Shown here: in pieces, positions 28,854 to 37,029 of the stretch | Position numbering within the stretch: position 1 is the first letter of the stretch | Layout: every line of letters starts with the position of its first letter | Source: Picochlorum sp. 'celeri' | Lineage: Eukaryota > Chlorophyta > Trebouxiophyceae | DNA: 64,000 bases | Direction: 5' to 3' | Assembly: GCA_010909725.1 (NCBI GenBank) | Contig: JAACMV010000027.1 | Span: forward strand, 901,001-965,000 | Notes under the pieces: generated by a model | Told to the model about the DNA's origin: nothing | The model's database searches: none | Seen by the model: the letters and a program-made list of their open reading frames with translations, nothing else | Made by a program: the position numbers and the translations under genes

Positions 28854-29063
28854 CGTAATATTCGTTCAAATTTTACACGGTGTGCTGCGACAGAGGACAA
28901 ACGTTCAGATTTGATATCCAGTCTCTCTCACGGATCGATAAGACTCCCATCAGACGGAGGGCACGACCGGCCCTGCCTTTGGAGGCAATTGCAATGTGCA
29001 ATGAATGGATGGCTACGCTTGATATCACAATACACATGCTATATATCAAAATTCATCATCAGG

Positions 29064-30458
29064 ATGGCTCATTTGCGAGGTAGCCTGAGGTATAGTCGAA
29101 CAGTAGGCCTCCTGGTCGAGTATGGAAAACTGCCAACTCAGGTGTCAGGAGTCGATGGCATTTTGTCGTCTGTGTACACAAATAATCCGTTAAGAGAATA
29201 TGTTTCAAAAGATTTTGGGAAGAGGGCATGGTCATCTGCATCCTGGGATCCTTCGGTGTCGGGAGAAGGGCGGTATGAGCGCATGTCAGATGTACCACCG
29301 GAAGGGATAGTGACTGTGAGGGATCCCATTACATTCAAGGACAATTGGCACGCTGGAATGAGTTTAAAAGAGGCTGTGGAGTCGAGGAACAAAGAAGACA
29401 CGTTTGGTCTGTACGTTGACCTGCCGAAGAGGGCAGGGAACGTGGTGGCAGAGGCCACCGCCTCCTTTTACCATCATCCCGAGTTGACGAGGGCTAATAT
29501 TCGACAGTTCGACTATGGATGCAAAGGAGCAATGCAAGAATTCAATGCAACGGGTCAGCATATGTGTATGTACAGGCCATGCCTGGATGATCTGTATAGT
29601 GCTGCTCTAGATGAAGGAAACAAAGGGTCACGGGTTGACATTGTGCTAGATGGCTGGAAGGGCTCGGGCAAGACCGTCGCACTGTATTCCTTGGCTGCAT
29701 TGGCTCGTGAGAAAGGATGGGTGGTTATGTTTGTCCCTTCTGCATCTTTGCTGGTGCAGGGTGGAATGTTCAAGAGAAAGGACGAGGATGAGGCGGTGTG
29801 GTACACGCCGCAGGCTGCCCATCACATCCTCCGAGCAGTCTTTGAGCCCCATGCCGAATCTTTGGAGAAATTATCTGCTTTGGATGGGAAGAGATCTCTG
29901 GGTGACGTTTGTCGGCATGGACTGGAGACAAAGGATGACTTTGAAAGGGTTGATGCTGCCATAGAGGTGATGCGCGGGCTGCTCAGGGCAGATGGGGAAC
30001 ATGGCATTCGCACCCTCGTCATCGTGGACGAATACAATTATTTATATCATAGAACAGAATATCATGAAACTATGCATCAGTTCCATCGGAGGCGGATCGA
30101 ACCTCGTGAACTGAAACTTGCCTCTGCATTCATGCTCAGTGAGCAGGACAGGGAAGCAGGCATCCTTGCCACTGCATGCACACATGGTGGCCCAATATCT
30201 CCTCGTGTGCATATTCCAATCCACTCAGAATCTCGTATTATTAGAGTTCCCCGGTTCTCGTTGGAAGAAGTATCGAATATGTGCTCCATGATGGTATCAA
30301 AGAAGCTTGTGCCAGAACTTCCCCCTGATGACTCCCTCCGGAGGGCATTGGCACTGACAAACGGAAACGGAAAAGAGATTCGTGAGGGTCGCACTACATT
30401 ATTTCAGAAGGATTGCGGCATGGCACTAAGCTTTGGAAGAAAAAATACATCTAAATAA
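29064..30458 (+). CDS. DAP3: Mitochondrial small ribosomal subunit protein mS29 (DAP3)
   Basis: The ATG at 29064 gives 464 residues with a basic N-terminus (MAHLRGSLRYSRTVGLLVE) suited to mitochondrial import. The frame is open further upstream but without a better start. The core has a P-loop, LDGWKGSGKTVALYSLAALA (about 194-213), a Walker B-like TLVIVDEYNYLYHRTEY and the C-terminal RFSLEEVSNMCSMM motif, all typical of mS29/DAP3 GTP-binding proteins. It sits in the head of the mitoribosomal small subunit. The stop is 5 bp from the convergent histone deacetylase gene. Confidence 0.9.
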   Translation: MAHLRGSLRYSRTVGLLVEYGKLPTQVSGVDGILSSVYTNNPLREYVSKDFGKRAWSSASWDPSVSGEGRYERMSDVPPEGIVTVRDPITFKDNWHAGMSLKEAVESRNKEDTFGLYVDLPKRAGNVVAEATASFYHHPELTRANIRQFDYGCKGAMQEFNATGQHMCMYRPCLDDLYSAALDEGNKGSRVDIVLDGWKGSGKTVALYSLAALAREKGWVVMFVPSASLLVQGGMFKRKDEDEAVWYTPQAAHHILRAVFEPHAESLEKLSALDGKRSLGDVCRHGLETKDDFERVDAAIEVMRGLLRADGEHGIRTLVIVDEYNYLYHRTEYHETMHQFHRRRIEPRELKLASAFMLSEQDREAGILATACTHGGPISPRVHIPIHSESRIIRVPRFSLEEVSNMCSMMVSKKLVPELPPDDSLRRALALTNGNGKEIREGRTTLFQKDCGMALSFGRKNTSK

Positions 30459-30463
30459 CATTT

Positions 30464-31121
30464 TTAATTCGGTGATTTCCACATCTGCTGAGGAGGTCTG
30501 CTGACACCCATCACGACTTCATGGCCATCTTCAACGGATGGTAACGCCATTGTCGCATCTGGGGTATCAGGTGGGCGCTCATGAAATGCTACACTTGGCG
30601 AATGTTGCACATATGACAAGTGGTGCATCACCTTTTCCAAGATCTTGCTCCTGTAGGCCTCATCGTTCTGATCCTTTACAGAAGGGTCACAAACGACCTC
30701 GCTATTATACTCTGGTGCGAAATACTCGTAGTAATCACTGAGAGGAGTATCATTAATATCATCCCCAACTGACACTCCTGTCTCAAATGCCCAGCATCGC
30801 GCAACATTCTTTATTGTGTATCCTCCTCCACCCAGCAACAACAAGGGCACACTGAATTGCTTCATATGCTCGATACACGATGCGTGTCCCTTTGAAGACA
30901 GGTTGAACTTTCCCAGACGGTCATGCGCCAAGGAATCAGCGCCGGCTTGAAACACCACCACTTCTGGTTGATACACCTGCATGATTCTGTTCACTATTGG
31001 TTTGAACATGAGCTCGTAGGAAGTATCACTCGCTCCATCCTTCAATGGAACATTGACGGAGTAATATTTTCCGGGCCCATGCCCAACATTGACGATGTCT
31101 CCAGTCCCAGGAAAGAACATA
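30464..31121 (-). pseudogene. Class I histone deacetylase gene, 3' part, separated by the mobile element
   Basis: This is the downstream portion of the gene whose 5' part is at 36441-37029. It begins at the TA duplication and encodes FFPGTGDIVNVGHGPGKYYS, the zinc-binding Asp in VVFQAGADSLAHDRLG, the catalytic Tyr in LLLLGGGGYTIKNVARCW and a ~75-residue C-terminal tail. The FFPGTGD spelling (one residue longer than HDAC1/2) and SDYYEYFAPEY resemble HDAC3. Removing 31122-36440 and one TA joins GAT and ATG in frame, so the host gene was a single continuous exon here. As it stands this part has no promoter of its own. Confidence 0.9.
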
Positions 31122-31145
31122 TCGTAAAAATTTTAAATTTCGTTT
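31122..31145 (+). repeat. Left terminal inverted repeat of the Fanzor element
   Basis: Starts TCGTAAAAATTTTAAA and continues TTTCGTTT. It aligns without gaps to the reverse complement of 36417-36440 with 4 mismatches (positions 1, 2, 9 and 14). The TA at 31120-31121 is the flanking duplication, and the preceding bases make CATA immediately outside the element. Confidence 0.88.
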
Positions 31146-33967
31146 AAACATTCCCGCGATGCTGTCTTTGATTACCTGCCTTTCATCGGGATCAGTGTCT
31201 TGATTTCAAATTTCGTACATAGATTCGAGGATTCGTTCGGGGGCGTCTCTGGACCGACCAGCCTCATGCGAGATGGGATGGTGCAGCCCATGTGTTTGAA
31301 CGCATGGTTTGATGCGAATACTTCAAATATTTGGACATAGACAGATGGTTCCAAACGTACGGGGTGTTTGCTTGTGGACTTGAACATGAGACAGGGCAGT
31401 TTGTGGACATATGTTGGTCGTTGCCGACGGAAGAGGTGCTTTAAATACGTGGCAGATGTGTTGACCAACAGAGAACTGTAGCCAGGTCTGTAGAAGTTCG
31501 AGTGTGCACCGATATTGAAGGCAATGCCATGTCCCTAGTCCCTACGCAATTACAGAAAACTATATCATTATGATAGATGGTCCATGTGATTCAACGTCCC
31601 CAAGTCAATTAACAGTGCAATTTGTTTGCTGTGTGTTGGGCAGGAGGCTAGTATCAGATGTCTTGTGGGGCACTCATCACCGTTCTCTTGCTCTTAAGCG
31701 CCATTAATTCCTTTCATCATACTATATATGATTCCTCAGTCATTTGATCGGTGTTGTCTTCTTCGTATATCCGCGTTTGGTCGCAGTATCCGTGATACAT
31801 CTGAGATCCTTTGGGGTACCTGAGTGTTGCTCACTTCCAGTCATACCCTTCCTTGCAATGCTTGGTGTGCATCAATCCGGTATCCTTGGCTTCGAGATAA
31901 TGCTCTATTCTTTCTTAGAGGCGAATCTCTTGGCGCTTTGGCCGCTGTGTGATTGATTACAATCTTCTTGTCTTCTATTTCCCACAGTATCGATGTGAGT
32001 CATTCCAACCTATACCTTCCTTTTGTTTCGGCAGATCTTCGTGATTCTCTCGATCCTTTTGTTTTATCTCATATGATCGGTAAATATAATGCTGGGTTTT
32101 ATGTGCTGAGAGGTCAATTGAAGGTATGGACTCAACCATCAAAGGAGGGAGGTTTCTGTCACCTGGAGGTGCTGAAAGTGAGCTATGGTTGGTGCCATGA
32201 TTTCTGATATTTGTCGACTGCTTCCTAATTGTGTAAAGCGATCCTGTCAGTCAAATCCACCATTTATTTTCTTCAAATCACTTCCATTTGAGATGCCAGT
32301 GCTACCCTACTATCCGATATATCCTACTCTGTCTCAGTGTACACATAGCGAACCTGGAAATTGGAATAGACAACAGACAGGCCTTCTTTCAACGGAGCTT
32401 CAGGTCCAGCACAGACGAGACACGGGTCTTCAATCAATAGGATCGAAGCAAGGATGCTATGAATGGGGTCACAATGACTATCTCACCTAGAAAACTCGCT
32501 TGGCTGTCAACGCTTGGTGGGTACAAAAAAGATTTGACCCACACTTGTTAGCAGGTCTTAGTTTCCTTCTCCCCATCAGATTACACACTCAATCAACTCA
32601 GCCATGGAAACGAGCCCCAACGGAAGCAATATTGATGGTATCAATATGTTAGAAAGTTGCATCCCGTGAGAAAGGTCACAGGTAGATTCCTGATGCTCTA
32701 CCGGTGAGACGAAAACCTTCATCTGATGGTCCCTGCTGAATAACTCAGATTTGGCCACTCTTTTGGACGGTGTTGATTGATTCTCGGCATGCTAAATGTA
32801 CTCATGAACCGACTGACTCTTTCATCCAAACCATGAAAATATTTCTTTTTGCAACAGTTGGACCAGTCAAAAAAGCCATCTGTTCTGGAGGAATACATGT
32901 AGAACTTTGTGGTCTAATGCAATTCCCCCGAATTTGATCATACTTGCCGGGCTCAAAGGATCCGGGCTGCCTGATTTTGGTCTTGGAGGTCGATGAGTAA
33001 AATATCGGGACATATATTGATCGGGGCGGACGGAGGACATGCTCTGAGTGCAGGGCAGTTGTGTTGACTGACAAAGTGTTGACAGGACAGCACCCTCTCA
33101 TGCACCTCATGAGAAACAGTGCCATGTCAGTAACCATCTGCTTTTTGAGGATTATACTGATCACTCTAAACATGAGCAATTACATCGAATCTTCTCTCAT
33201 CTCTTTAGATGTTCATGAAATGCTCTTAGGTGCTCTCTGATGTTCTTAGAGCCTTTTCAGGTGTTCTCAGATGATCTTGGATGTTCTCAGAGCTTCATCA
33301 AATGCTCCCTGATGTCGATCACATGTTCTGATGATCTTAGATATTTGTTGAATGTCCATGAAATATTGATCTGATGTTCTCAGAGATTCTGAGAGGTTCT
33401 TGTTCATTGAATCTTCTTTCATCTTCTTTGGCACTGCTGTTTCCGTAATAAGTTGGGGGCACTCTGGGGAGTGGGTCGATCGAGAGTATCGGCCGGTCCA
33501 CTGAGGGCCGCGACAGATGAAGAAGACCGGTTTCGGAGGTGTCGGCAACCCGCCTTTGCGGCGCTGGGCCGCCCAGCAGAAACGCCCGTTGCGGCCCGGA
33601 CCGTAGCCCAGCCCAGTTTTTTTGAAATATCTTTTCGTCGGGGGCCGAGCGAGGAAATTTCGGAGCCTGGCGAGGGAGCGATTTTCGGCACATTTCCGGA
33701 AATCGCGCACATCGGCGGAGACCGCCCCTCGCGCCCGGCACCTCCTCCGGCGAGAAATGCAAAATCCCACACTTATGCAGTGTGTTATTCGATTGGGAGG
33801 CTCGTTTCCGGGCGATCGGTCTCGTGCCGGACGCCCCGATTTAAAGAAAATCCCGATTTTTTTATGGTTACAGCTGTAATCCTTAATCTACGCATCGCAA
33901 TTAAGGAATGTAACATCTAGTCCATTTGACTCTGGTCAATCCGAATCTTCTAGAACCTTGGATTGGT
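31146..33967. other. Left arm of the Fanzor element, no intact gene
   Basis: About 2.8 kb without a convincing frame. Three kinds of internal structure are visible. First, a diverged direct repeat of 62 bp (31405-31466 and 33008-33069; 46 of 62 positions match). Second, a degenerate array built on GATGTTCTCAGA-like words (about 33180-33420). Third, a strikingly GC-rich block (about 33440-33840) just before the Fanzor ATG. The GC-rich block may be the Fanzor promoter region or a nested insertion. Mismatches in the 62-bp repeat show no codon periodicity, so it is not obviously decayed coding sequence. Confidence 0.55.
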
Positions 33968-36319
33968 ATGAAGTCGAGCCGCCATCGCCAACCGTGTCAT
34001 TTCAAAATGAAAAAAAAGAGAAAGGTGTCCGCCACACCATCGAAAAAGGTGAAGAAAAAGAAGTTTACTCGATTGGATGTGGCTATAAAGAAGGATAAAG
34101 ACCGTTTTTTCAATAAGACAGTCGTCAAGTGCACTTTGCAGCCTTTTTGTAAGTTCAAAGTGGTTCAACGCGAAATTGAAGAATGTGTATTCTATCTGAG
34201 TAGACTACAGATTCATGCGCATCATGTCATGCATCTATTGTTATTGAGGAACGGTGGGGCATTTAGGGACGATAAAGATGAATCTCTCTACGAACTCTAC
34301 AACAAAATCTACAGACACCTTGCTAATCATTTGCAACAAAAGAAGGAGAGAAAGGATGTTGATACCAACTTGCGCGACTTGTGTAAGGAATATTGTGATG
34401 AGGTTGCGTTGGAGAGAGATTGGCCTCAGGGTTGTGTCTCTGGTTGGAGGGACAGAACAATTGAGCAGATGGCCCAGCAGTCGTCTGTTATGCACACCAC
34501 GCATTTGGAAACAAACCTCAATGTGTATACATTACGATATCTGAGATATTTGTTGTTTCGAGACGACACGGACTTTGACCAAATCAAAAATTTGTCAAAG
34601 AAGAAGTTTGGACAAGTATTTTCTGCAATCACACAGGCATTCTGGGAGAGGACGAAAGTCAGTGATATTGTTGAACGTAGACCATCATTGACAGAATTTG
34701 CGTCTGATGTGTCAGTATGGGATGAAGCACAGAGAGCCTTGGATATCATTTGCTCGTTGGTGCCAAAGACGACAACTCTTTCTGAGAAATCCAGAATTTG
34801 CTTCTTCATTTTGGGTCACTTGGAGCCATTCGTGGAATCACTGCAACAGAGGTTCAGAAACGGAGAGTTTGAAGGGAAGAAGAGTATACTTGGAAGACAG
34901 AAATGGACATTTTGTCTGTGTCCACAGATGGCCTGGAAACCAAAGCATATCCATATCTCCAGCACAGCAGTGAAGACTATGGTTGAGCAACTCGCAAAGA
35001 AATATCCATATATCAGAAAGATAGTAGATGACTGTCCAGCACTGGATGACTATACAAATAAGTATTATTATTGGAAATCGATATTCAACATGAAGCGAGT
35101 ATTGAAAAAAAAGCACATGAAGGACCAAAAGAAACTCAGATTCGGATGCTCTATATGCACTGATGGCGTCTCTGTTTCTGCTGTTATAGACACTGTGAAG
35201 TCGGATCTGGAATGCACGATAATCCATCTGCAGGATGATATGAATTACGTCAAAGCAAAGTTGTGGGCCACCTACTGTGGGATGTTTGCAACCAACATTA
35301 TTGCAAAAAAGATCAGATATGACCCTTTGCGTATTCTCCTTGGTGACATTTCCACCATACATTATGTTCTACTGAAGCCATTGTTGCATACATTAAAGTC
35401 ACAAAAGGACGTTCTACAGAAACGAAAGGCTAAAAACAAAGACAAGACAGTCATCACAGAAAGGATCAAAAGGTTGGCTGGCATACGCAAAGATGACCAT
35501 GGTATATATCACACAGATTGTATCATTGTCGGTTTGGACCCAGGTAAAAAGTCAGCGGCCACGTGGGTTTTTCATGATTCGGAAAAGCAAAAGATCCATG
35601 CAAAGTGGAATGCAGAAAATGGTCGTCATACAGAGGTGGAAGACAGATATAAAAGTGATTCTCTGGGGTCAGGAGAATGGATCTTCGTATCTAGTCAGAA
35701 ACAGTATACAGCCAAAATGAAGAAAAGGATGTCTGAATACTGTCCTGCATGGGTGTCTGTGCCAACATGCAAGACAGTAGATCTTGAGAAAATTTTTGAG
35801 AGTTACAGATTCCAAGTTTCTATGTGGCCCCAACTGCAACAAGCCTTCTTCGATGACAAAAAATGGTATCAGAAACAGAAGATGAGGAAATTTTGCAAGG
35901 AAAAGTCGGCCATGGAGGATGTGGTCGCTCGAATCTGTGGAACAAGAAACAAAGAGGCACAGAAGAGAGTCATCGTGGCGTATGGTGATGGTGATAATAA
36001 CGGCACAATGAGGGGCACTGCTCCTATCATGAGCACAAAACTGTTCAACAAGGTATCGGAATGTGCCACAGTTGTGTTGGTTAATGAGTTCAATACGTCC
36101 AAACTCTGTTCTTGCTGTCATGAGGCAATGGAACAGTACAACAAACAATTCAGGATGAAACGTTGTCACAACAATGAATGCATTCGAAATGTTTGGGACC
36201 GTGATGTCAATGCCAGTATCAATATCAAAGACTTGTTTTTGGAAAAGTGTTACAATGGATCTCGAATCAAGGCTTTCAAGAGGACGAGGAAAAGGCAAAG
36301 GACATCAACACGGCAATGA
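33968..36319 (+). CDS. Fanzor: eukaryotic TnpB-like RNA-guided endonuclease family protein
   Basis: The product is 783 residues and uninterrupted. The ATG at 33968 is the first in frame. The N-terminus carries a nuclear localisation-like cluster, KMKKKRKVSATPSKKVKKKK (about 14-33). The C-terminal RuvC-like nuclease has motif I IIVGLDPGKKSA (Asp524), motif II VLVNEFNTSKLCS (Glu707) and motif III VWDRDVNASINI (Asp746). A zinc finger sits between II and III (CSCC, then CHNNEC). These are the catalytic marks of TnpB/Fanzor/Cas12-type proteins, and all three acidic residues are kept, so the enzyme may be active. Known Fanzors cut DNA beside a short target motif, guided by an RNA from the element's 3' end. 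The long N-terminal region (1-500) and association with a transposon suggest the Fanzor1 group. No introns are seen. Confidence 0.92.
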   Translation: MKSSRHRQPCHFKMKKKRKVSATPSKKVKKKKFTRLDVAIKKDKDRFFNKTVVKCTLQPFCKFKVVQREIEECVFYLSRLQIHAHHVMHLLLLRNGGAFRDDKDESLYELYNKIYRHLANHLQQKKERKDVDTNLRDLCKEYCDEVALERDWPQGCVSGWRDRTIEQMAQQSSVMHTTHLETNLNVYTLRYLRYLLFRDDTDFDQIKNLSKKKFGQVFSAITQAFWERTKVSDIVERRPSLTEFASDVSVWDEAQRALDIICSLVPKTTTLSEKSRICFFILGHLEPFVESLQQRFRNGEFEGKKSILGRQKWTFCLCPQMAWKPKHIHISSTAVKTMVEQLAKKYPYIRKIVDDCPALDDYTNKYYYWKSIFNMKRVLKKKHMKDQKKLRFGCSICTDGVSVSAVIDTVKSDLECTIIHLQDDMNYVKAKLWATYCGMFATNIIAKKIRYDPLRILLGDISTIHYVLLKPLLHTLKSQKDVLQKRKAKNKDKTVITERIKRLAGIRKDDHGIYHTDCIIVGLDPGKKSAATWVFHDSEKQKIHAKWNAENGRHTEVEDRYKSDSLGSGEWIFVSSQKQYTAKMKKRMSEYCPAWVSVPTCKTVDLEKIFESYRFQVSMWPQLQQAFFDDKKWYQKQKMRKFCKEKSAMEDVVARICGTRNKEAQKRVIVAYGDGDNNGTMRGTAPIMSTKLFNKVSECATVVLVNEFNTSKLCSCCHEAMEQYNKQFRMKRCHNNECIRNVWDRDVNASINIKDLFLEKCYNGSRIKAFKRTRKRQRTSTRQ

Positions 36320-36440
36320 ATTCGGCATGTAAGTCGGCTGCTTTTTGCAGACGCTATGCTTCAAGATACAGCAGAGAGAACGATGGAACTTCCAAGTTTG
36401 GAACATTCCGTCCGACAAACGAAATTAAAAAATTTTACTG
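36320..36440 (+). ncRNA. Candidate omega-RNA region at the right end of the Fanzor element
   Basis: The 121 nt between the Fanzor stop and the element end are non-coding. In TnpB and Fanzor systems the guide scaffold is encoded here, with the guide read from flanking DNA. Short hairpins are visible: CTGC-TTTTT-GCAG (about 36340-36352) and TTCCAA-GT-TTGGAA (about 36390-36403). The terminal inverted repeat follows. The guide would start in deacetylase sequence at 36441 or after the TA. The evidence is positional plus weak structure. Confidence 0.45.
36417..36440 (-). repeat. Right terminal inverted repeat of the Fanzor element
   Basis: Reads CAGTAAAATTTTTTAA then TTTCGTTT on the minus strand, the inverted partner of 31122-31145. 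The TA at 36441-36442 is the flanking duplication. Confidence 0.88.
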
Positions 36441-37029
36441 TATCCCCAAACTTGTGAAAAGAGAGGGTCAACACGCGATCAGTTGTCAGAAAAGCCTCTT
36501 CCACACCATCCCCATGATGAACATCGATATCAATATATAAAACCCTCTGATGATACTTTAGAAGCTCTAAAATTCCAAGCACGATATCATTCACGTAACA
36601 GAAGCCCGCAGATTCAGCTTTCTTTGCATGATGCAATCCTCCAGCCCAATTGATTGCAATGTCAGCCTCCCCTTTGTTTAATTTGACGGCACAACCCAGA
36701 GTACCCCCTGCTGTTATCTGATTATACTCCCATAAGCCTTCAAAAACAGGACAATCGTCGTGCATGTTATACAGCCTCAACTGCTGCGCCAAGGCAGGGT
36801 TGGTGTTGCTGAGCAGATCGACATAATCGGCGTCGTGAAACGCCATCATGTCCTCCTTTTGCGCACGTGAAGGCAAATAGCAATCGAGTTTGTCATAGAT
36901 CCCCGAATGCATGATCAGTGAGTGCGCCATCCTCACCCTGTGTGGTTTCATTGGGTGCCCTGGACCATAGTAAAATGAGCCTATGTCGGCATCATACATG
37001 TACGCGACTCTTTTCTTTCGCTCGACCAT
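36441..37029 (-). pseudogene. Class I histone deacetylase gene, 5' part, broken by the Fanzor element
   Basis: The ATG at 37029 gives [20 protein letters not shown] and [10 protein letters not shown], the usual class I opening. It continues through [23 protein letters not shown] and the zinc ligands in [13 protein letters not shown] to TLSFHKFGD. The frame then enters the element's right end, runs about 26 foreign codons and stops. The truncated product would lack the second zinc Asp and the catalytic Tyr, so it should be inactive. No splice acceptor lies at the far element end to restore the protein. The gene removes acetyl groups from histones in the nucleus when intact. It resembles HDAC3 at the junction. 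It could be intact on another allele. Confidence 0.9.

Follow-up and report, generated by a model that had tools for sequence, protein, structure and literature searches.

Element-centred allelic identity around a Fanzor1 transposon in an interrupted HDAC gene of Picochlorum sp. 'celeri', a possible case of RNA-guided homing

How an insertion that splits a gene can come to occupy both homologous chromosomes of a diploid alga is the question raised by a 64,000-nucleotide stretch of the Picochlorum sp. 'celeri' genome (contig JAACMV010000027.1, positions 901,001 to 965,000; hereafter the window), in which a histone deacetylase (HDAC) gene is interrupted by an element carrying an open Fanzor gene. 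The insertion is present on both homologous contigs of the diploid, phased assembly (labels such as C1, C2 and C20 denote its contigs); the initial annotation of the window could see neither the partner contig nor the other HDAC genes. The best explanation, held with about even confidence, is that the element, which has Fanzor1 as its only gene and is non-autonomous, belongs to a DDE_1 (pogo/mariner-type) family of transposons that target TA, carries a later insertion of an unrelated repeat and homes onto the homologue. Allele-to-allele homing is the best-fitting function, advanced here as an unproven hypothesis with a chance well short of even.

Nine pairs of homologous places carry the Fanzor element on both contigs, and the principal evidence comes from comparing differences between alleles inside the element with those in its flanks. 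The two HDAC alleles show 0 differences over the 5,319 bp between the element ends versus 16 in 3,000 bp of near flank (Fisher p 8e-8). In a wider map, 44 differences lie in 9,541 bp of flank, and a 6,000-bp void covers the element, the next-largest void measuring 1,325 bp. Five further pairs show the same direction of element versus flank: C11/C19 (0/2,500 in the element versus 73/2,755 in the flanks, with 43/1,356 in the right flank alone; p 2e-21), C22/C2 (0/2,566 versus 11/2,741; p 0.001), C4/C30 (0/2,565 versus 8/2,780, the eight being confined to the right flank), C15/C27 at 61 kb (1/2,566 versus 9/2,780; p 0.02) and C13/C29 (4/2,563 versus 16/2,694; p 0.01). The remaining three of the nine pairs are uninformative. 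The features on which the argument draws are, by position in the window:

31118–31121, plus strand: TAM-like left flank CATA (TAM, target-adjacent motif), in which the TA at 31120–31121 belongs to the target-site duplication (TSD) and the base at −3 is A
31122–31145, plus strand: left terminal inverted repeat (TIR; TCGTAAAAATTTTAAATTTCGTTT)
31148–33898, strand not assigned: separate 2,751-bp repeat just inside the left TIR, missing from the 2,566-bp copies
31146–31147 and 33899–33900: AA on either side of the 2,751-bp repeat
33899–33967, plus strand: rest of the native leader, which runs from the left end to the ATG
33968–36319, plus strand: open Fanzor1 reading frame of 783 codons, with codon 14 (34007) as its likely start
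34007–34066, plus strand: basic cluster resembling a nuclear localisation signal, residues 14–33 (function predicted)
35537–35539, plus strand: RuvC Asp524, within the DPG motif
36086–36088, plus strand: RuvC Glu707
36107–36181, plus strand: C4 zinc finger (Cys714, 717, 733 and 738)
36203–36205, plus strand: RuvC Asp746
36320–36440, plus strand: 3' noncoding region, predicted omega-RNA (reRNA) scaffold
36365–36371, plus strand: GATACAG, predicted to pair with CTG-TA at 36438–36442 (right end plus TSD)
36417–36440, plus strand: right TIR, whose final letters CTG place CTGTA, not NATA, before the flank
36441–36442, plus strand: right copy of the TA TSD
36443–36462, plus strand: predicted guide, the first ~20 nt of flank past the TSD
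30464–31120, minus strand: C-terminal half of the interrupted HDAC (PF00850 positions 179–293)
36441–37029, minus strand: N-terminal half of the interrupted HDAC (PF00850 positions 1–176)

A second line of evidence lies in the sequence into which the element is inserted. With alleles counted once, with the four C13/C29/C1/C21 copies that have one flank counted once, and with C11 lacking a left end, the base before the TA is A at 11/11 distinct left junctions (CATA twice, GATA twice, TATA once and AATA six times), whereas on the right side the first base after the TA is T in only 1/10 (Fisher 3e-5; 1e-4 without the C21:101k copy, which has the same right flank as the C13/C29 place). The NATA preference is therefore tied to element orientation, and a palindromic transposase preference would not give such a flank. 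By analogy, the left flank resembles a TAM: SpuFz1, likewise from an element with TA TSDs, needs CATA (PMC10432273). The predicted guide, which rests on Fanzor biology, would match an empty HDAC allele. Within 3 mismatches, guide plus TAM matched only the occupied HDAC right junctions, where CTGTA stands in place of ACATA, and no unoccupied target for the guide was found in the assembly at that threshold; the best sites at the HDAC paralogue loci carry 5–8 mismatches in 24 nt. At both HDAC copies the right end thus gives CTGTA rather than NATA, the putative TAM. Two allelic indels fall close by: C30 lacks 3 bp of C4, nucleotides 21–23 past the right TA, and C11, which has lost its left TIR, lacks about 14–16 nt of C19 directly past the TA. 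SpuFz1 cuts after nucleotides 16/17 and 20/21 (PMC10432273), an analogy under which these two cases are suggestive only of repair scars near SpuFz1-type cut positions.

Homing would proceed in a few steps. A transposase supplied in trans would paste the Fanzor element at a TA, and transcription through its 3' end would yield an omega-RNA, its scaffold including the right TIR and TSD and its guide being the adjoining host sequence. Fanzor would then cut at (N)ATA plus protospacer on the homologue still lacking the element, and repair off the occupied chromosome would copy the element across; occupied sites would be spared because the right end, CTG-TA, is no TAM. At HDAC the element would in this way have become homozygous, leaving the gene split on both chromosomes with other HDAC genes remaining. 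The broader claim, that a eukaryotic Fanzor transposon acts as a natural homing drive whose insertions reach homozygosity even where this costs a gene, with the C30 and C11 indels as scars, is tentative and somewhat doubtful.

A number of observations weigh against homing, several of them pointing to ordinary processes. The Fisher values for the alleles overstate the contrast because differences cluster; the HDAC differences form 22 clusters, for which a permutation gave p 1e-4. At both C8/C17 loci the flanks are without substitutions, and at C1/C21 the flanks have 0/1,299 and the element 2 substitutions and 22 gaps, so that these three pairs cannot discriminate; they fit ordinary loss of heterozygosity (LOH) near chromosome ends. 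The 1,407 bp to the left of the C4/C30 element are identical as well, and on C20/C5 a transposase-bearing relative and 1.3 kb of its flank lack substitutions. The element might thus be an ordinary non-autonomous transposon whose Fanzor has no part in allele conversion, made homozygous by LOH and mitotic recombination in a vegetative diploid, which we regard as possible but unlikely. The positions of the copies fit, since a contig end is no more than 70 kb away for 16 of the 20 right ends, where ~3 are expected by length, and recombination may be common near contig ends, where most copies sit. However, at HDAC, C11/C19, C22/C2, C4/C30, C15/C27 (61 kb) and C13/C29 the alleles show a drop in divergence over the element that one flank or both do not share; chance tracts do not predict identity centred on the element, and the orientation-dependent ATA flank is left unexplained by LOH.

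The assembly itself might also have produced the pattern, if one phase were written into both at repeat-rich loci and some of the biallelic pairs were truly heterozygous; this is improbable. The assembly output consists of pseudohaplotypes polished with long reads only, and identity at HDAC alone could be an artefact because FALCON-Phase may output a single sequence for the two phases; at HDAC itself no observation speaks against this. Typical consensus error is seen at C5/C20, where 3.7 kb compared between the transposase-bearing relatives show 13 small gaps and 0 substitutions, and in the gaps of the C1/C21 element. Because the C5/C20 copies differ by gaps only, some interruptions of Fanzor reading frames may likewise be consensus errors. 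On the other hand, heterozygous insertions were kept by the assembly (e.g., a copy of the 2.75-kb repeat on C5, with an uninterrupted counterpart on C20), and the alleles at C15/C27 (61 kb), C8/C17 (984 kb), C13/C29 and C11/C19 (left TIR deleted) differ in substitutions within the element or in structure at its edge.

The 2.75-kb repeat, which encodes no nuclease, also provides a control for biallelic occupancy. Fanzor right ends number 20 in the genome, at about 11 places, and group into nine pairs on homologous contigs, as inferred from paired search matches, plus two singles (C27:12.8 kb and C21:101.7 kb); a left end without a right end lies at C22:14 kb. For none of the repeat's nine interstitial places, which are all the candidates, do the matches on partner contigs include a counterpart; the control leaves out the arrays next to Fanzor copies and a fragment of 35 nt on C23. 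The C5 copy, with its empty site on C20, is the only one verified; for that at C7:558k the left flank was found on C24. Biallelic occupancy of 9/11 Fanzor places versus 0/9 for the control gives p 3e-4, a comparison confounded by location (interstitial versus near chromosome ends) and by age. The 25-kb contigs C13/C29 have both flanks in common with C1/C21 and may represent the same locus, in which case 8/10 places are biallelic (p 7e-4), a point on the side of the ordinary processes. On that side, too, is the element at C27:10k, whose C15 counterpart is unoccupied and keeps AATA and a protospacer with one mismatch; the C15 site is not a clean empty allele, because the far-side flank was not found beside it.

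Old insertions predating both haplotypes, with similarity kept by selection on Fanzor, would also account for nine pairs of homologous places occupied on both contigs, and the deep branch is constrained: comparing the HDAC copy with the seven other loci gives a ratio of nonsynonymous to synonymous substitution rates (dN/dS) of 0.25–0.34. Such an origin is very improbable, as noncoding DNA shares in the identity (the 2.75-kb repeat nested at HDAC shows 0 differences), and so do synonymous sites, while the flanks belonging to these haplotypes diverge. In comparisons of the seven loci other than HDAC with one another, dN/dS takes values between 0 and 2, with one pair undefined and few changes, a further point against homing; the Fanzor lineage was constrained and the recent copies are not visibly so. 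The HDAC Fanzor is the most diverged copy compared (37–45 substitutions in 2.5 kb versus 0–15 among the others), which lends no support to the recent insertion proposed in the initial annotation as far as Fanzor itself is concerned. The nested repeat is young, with copies on C21 and C5 that match it at 100% identity across 2,001 bp. Provided that the assembly is correct, the identity of the HDAC alleles implies that one of the two is recent.

The 3' noncoding region bears on the predicted guide RNA in both directions. Over the 121 nt after the stop codon the HDAC copy shows 0 differences from six of the seven other loci and 1 from the seventh, and synonymous differences from the same seven loci amount to 17–19 of about 470 sites (4%). 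The pairing of GATACAG with CTG-TA is also possible in the C20 relative, the 3' end of which gives a fold of two hairpins, one of them from the TIR, and a closing helix in which the TSD takes part (139 nt; z −3.66, 0/200 shuffles as good). With the flank included, the window can form the same parts, but the fold is not above shuffles (z 0.37). Other foldings of its 3' end (z −0.67 and −0.93) are likewise not clearly better than shuffles, which adds to the points against homing; the last 88 nt of the element give z −1.83, with 7/200 shuffles as good. No Rfam match above the gathering score was found in the window. The left flank of the C20 relative, CTTA, is a final point on that side: NATA is not common to all relatives and is limited at most to the subfamily of the window element.

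The structure of the element at HDAC agrees in most respects with the initial annotation, which described a 5,319-bp element with matched ends, a TA duplication and a Fanzor gene inserted in a coding exon. The ends at 31122–31145 and 36417–36440 are inverted repeats (85% over 27 nt; 20/24 by our own count) flanked by TA at 31120–31121 and 36441–36442, and TIRs with a TA TSD are those of a Tc1/mariner-type (DDE_1) transposon. A single 5,319-bp element is ruled out, as the TIR runs directly into the leader at 16/16 other places with an exact left TIR core and the canonical, Fanzor-only copy measures 2,566 bp. What interrupts HDAC is therefore a 2,566-bp element in which the 2,751-bp repeat is nested. 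That repeat has many other genomic copies, single and in tandem; it is unrelated to the Fanzor element and was inserted later, and the nested insertion is young because 100% identical copies exist elsewhere. Unclassified, it forms tandem arrays with 2.57–2.76 kb spacing on several contigs, the units joined by AA, and some arrays adjoin Fanzor copies. Most of the 2,566-bp element is taken up by the Fanzor frame, no other long sense-strand frame is listed in it, and the element is classed as non-autonomous because it has no DDE transposase frame of its own.

The two HDAC halves match Hist_deacetyl (PF00850) profile positions 1–176 and 179–293, and the interrupted gene is real, because the domain picks up where it was broken off (176 to 179), in agreement with the exon placement proposed earlier. 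Intron-like splicing of the insertion, judged by eye only, was set aside, there being no AG at the far element end on the HDAC strand. A paralogue 55% identical over the searched half is present as 462-aa frames on both C27 and C15, and one 57% identical as a 474-aa frame on C4 and only a 292-aa frame on C30; both are probably class I, a label of our own based on sequence. More distant HDAC genes are also present in the genome. Beside HDAC, at 29001–30458, lies a gene resembling DAP3 (mitochondrial ribosomal death-associated protein).

The encoded protein is a Fanzor1, SPu-1-like, in a TIR element with TA TSDs, a kind already known. It matches Pfam PF07282 at 33.4 bits (cut-off 26.3) and contains the D-X(125,275)-[TS][TS]XX-C4-X(5,50)-RD motif of the RuvC and zinc-ribbon region that Bao & Jurka describe for Fanzor/TnpB (PMC3627910). 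DPG stands at 524 and Glu707 directly before [TS][TS]XXC; a DPG motif and a repositioned Glu form the Fanzor fingerprint (PMC10711439), and Glu707 is, in our reading of the motif, probably its 'alternative' Glu. Asp524, Glu707 and Asp746 are invariant in a 12-protein alignment and in all 13 open full-length copies. The nuclease assignment, three acidic residues, zinc finger and basic N-terminus of the initial annotation were all recovered. Translation likely begins at codon 14, where 10/11 relatives begin, the eleventh (P0007) starting later. In overall fold the predicted structure agrees with solved Fanzor1 proteins, of which SpuFz, PpFz and GtFz rank first among the matches, from a weak model (predicted local distance difference test, pLDDT, 66). 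A search of PDB with the single sequence gave no Fanzor match, and a search by profile matched GtFz1. Viral relatives were limited to three matches, 46–47% identical over 46–59 residues at the zinc finger. Possible activity of the nuclease has indirect support from the dN/dS of 0.25–0.34, the near-unchanged 3' region, the TAM-like flank and biallelic occupancy.

Protein searches of the genome returned 13 full-length open Fanzor frames of 97–100% identity, plus interrupted and more distant ones. All 38 exact matches to the TIR pattern are ends of this element's copies. A match with 2 mismatches at C20:40490 led to the transposase-bearing relative, in which a DDE_1 frame (51–53 bits in profile searches) is bounded by that end on one side and, on the other, by the right end belonging to an open Fanzor of 811 aa. 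Over about 60 bp the left ends of this relative and of the window family are homologous, and the right ends are less alike. The parts of the relative that were read lie on either side of C20:38546–40440. Both other copies and a transposase-bearing relative, the two things that the initial annotation proposed to look for with the 24-bp ends, are thus present. We infer that a C20-type transposase, presumably of the pogo/Fot group, moves the Fanzor-only element in trans. DDE_1 (PF03184) gave 8 matches; DDE_3 (PF13358) gave none in this genome, its control being positive in 3/14 genomes, and Transposase_1 (PF01359) gave no match in a search without any positive control, hence uninformative. The second Fanzor (C20:33140–38545 and its C5 counterpart) is 50% identical to that of the window. 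It stands directly behind the stop codon of a reading frame that we take to be adaptin-like, and the C5 allele differs by small gaps only over the 3.7 kb compared. More distant Fanzor-like matches, 26–39% identical in the C-terminal part and with reading frames as long as 1,034 aa, lie in many cases near contig ends and include C5:47517, C20:47373, C10:1080021, C11:1142431, C14:386044, C16:1071868 and C19:34320. Inverted near-copies of the Fanzor TIR spaced ~0.5 kb apart occur on both homologues (C2:1322216–1322738 and C22:1296354–1296876), resembling miniature inverted-repeat transposable elements of the same transposon family. For the truncated copy at C22:14 kb, the left flank is present three times in tandem at ~5.3-kb spacing on C2:13491–24413.

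The closest known system is SPu-1/SpuFz1 of Spizellomyces punctatus, which, as described in PMC3627910 and PMC10432273, likewise has a Fanzor1-only frame in a 2–2.6 kb element with TIRs and TA TSDs and is multicopy with many open frames. SpuFz1 is the best structural match to the window protein, within the limits of the weak model, and its TAM is CATA (PMC10432273) compared with the NATA flank here. It differs in protein length (633 aa versus 783, likely 770) and TIR length (33 versus 24 bp). According to Saito et al. (PMC10432273), no transposase lies between the Spu-1 ends, whereas a transposase-bearing relative exists here, and the phased diploid assembly permits alleles to be compared. Mariner Fanzor1 elements (PGv-1, PUl-1 and PUl-4) share the TA TSD and, in the account of PMC3627910, comprise families with transposase plus Fanzor1 as well as Fanzor1-only copies with Mariner TIRs, as here; in contrast, the C20 transposase matches Pfam DDE_1, and its left end is homologous and not identical to that of the window element. 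An abundant Fanzor repeat in Auxenochlorella, likewise a diploid trebouxiophyte alga, is called an uncharacterised element in PMC12636532, the available parts of which do not analyse the repeat for a TAM, a transposase or its alleles. In bacteria, the TnpB of IS200/IS605 can act as a plasmid gene drive in which unoccupied copies are cut, the occupied state spreads and the guide records the insertion site (PMC11870625); plasmid copies and IS200/605 transposition there contrast with eukaryotic homologues and a TIR element here.

Among the works listed in searches of the open-licence PubMed Central literature, no study of Fanzor homing in a eukaryote or of a Picochlorum Fanzor was found. Both names, Fanzor and Picochlorum, occur together in PMC12636532 and in the review PMC10820777. 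As far as these searches show, the Picochlorum family, its transposase-bearing relative, the TAM-like flank and the element-centred allelic identity that fits RNA-guided homing are new. What Fanzor nucleases do for their hosts is, according to Saito et al. (PMC10432273), unknown. P. celeri is a fast-growing alga with a phased diploid assembly, for which papers on Cas9 editing exist, so that homing can be tested in the native host: some 11 places are occupied, a TAM rule can be proposed, a relative carries a transposase, and the nuclease-free repeat serves as an internal control. If true, RNA-guided homing would be a natural bias of inheritance in eukaryotes, and not a bacterial or engineered one only.
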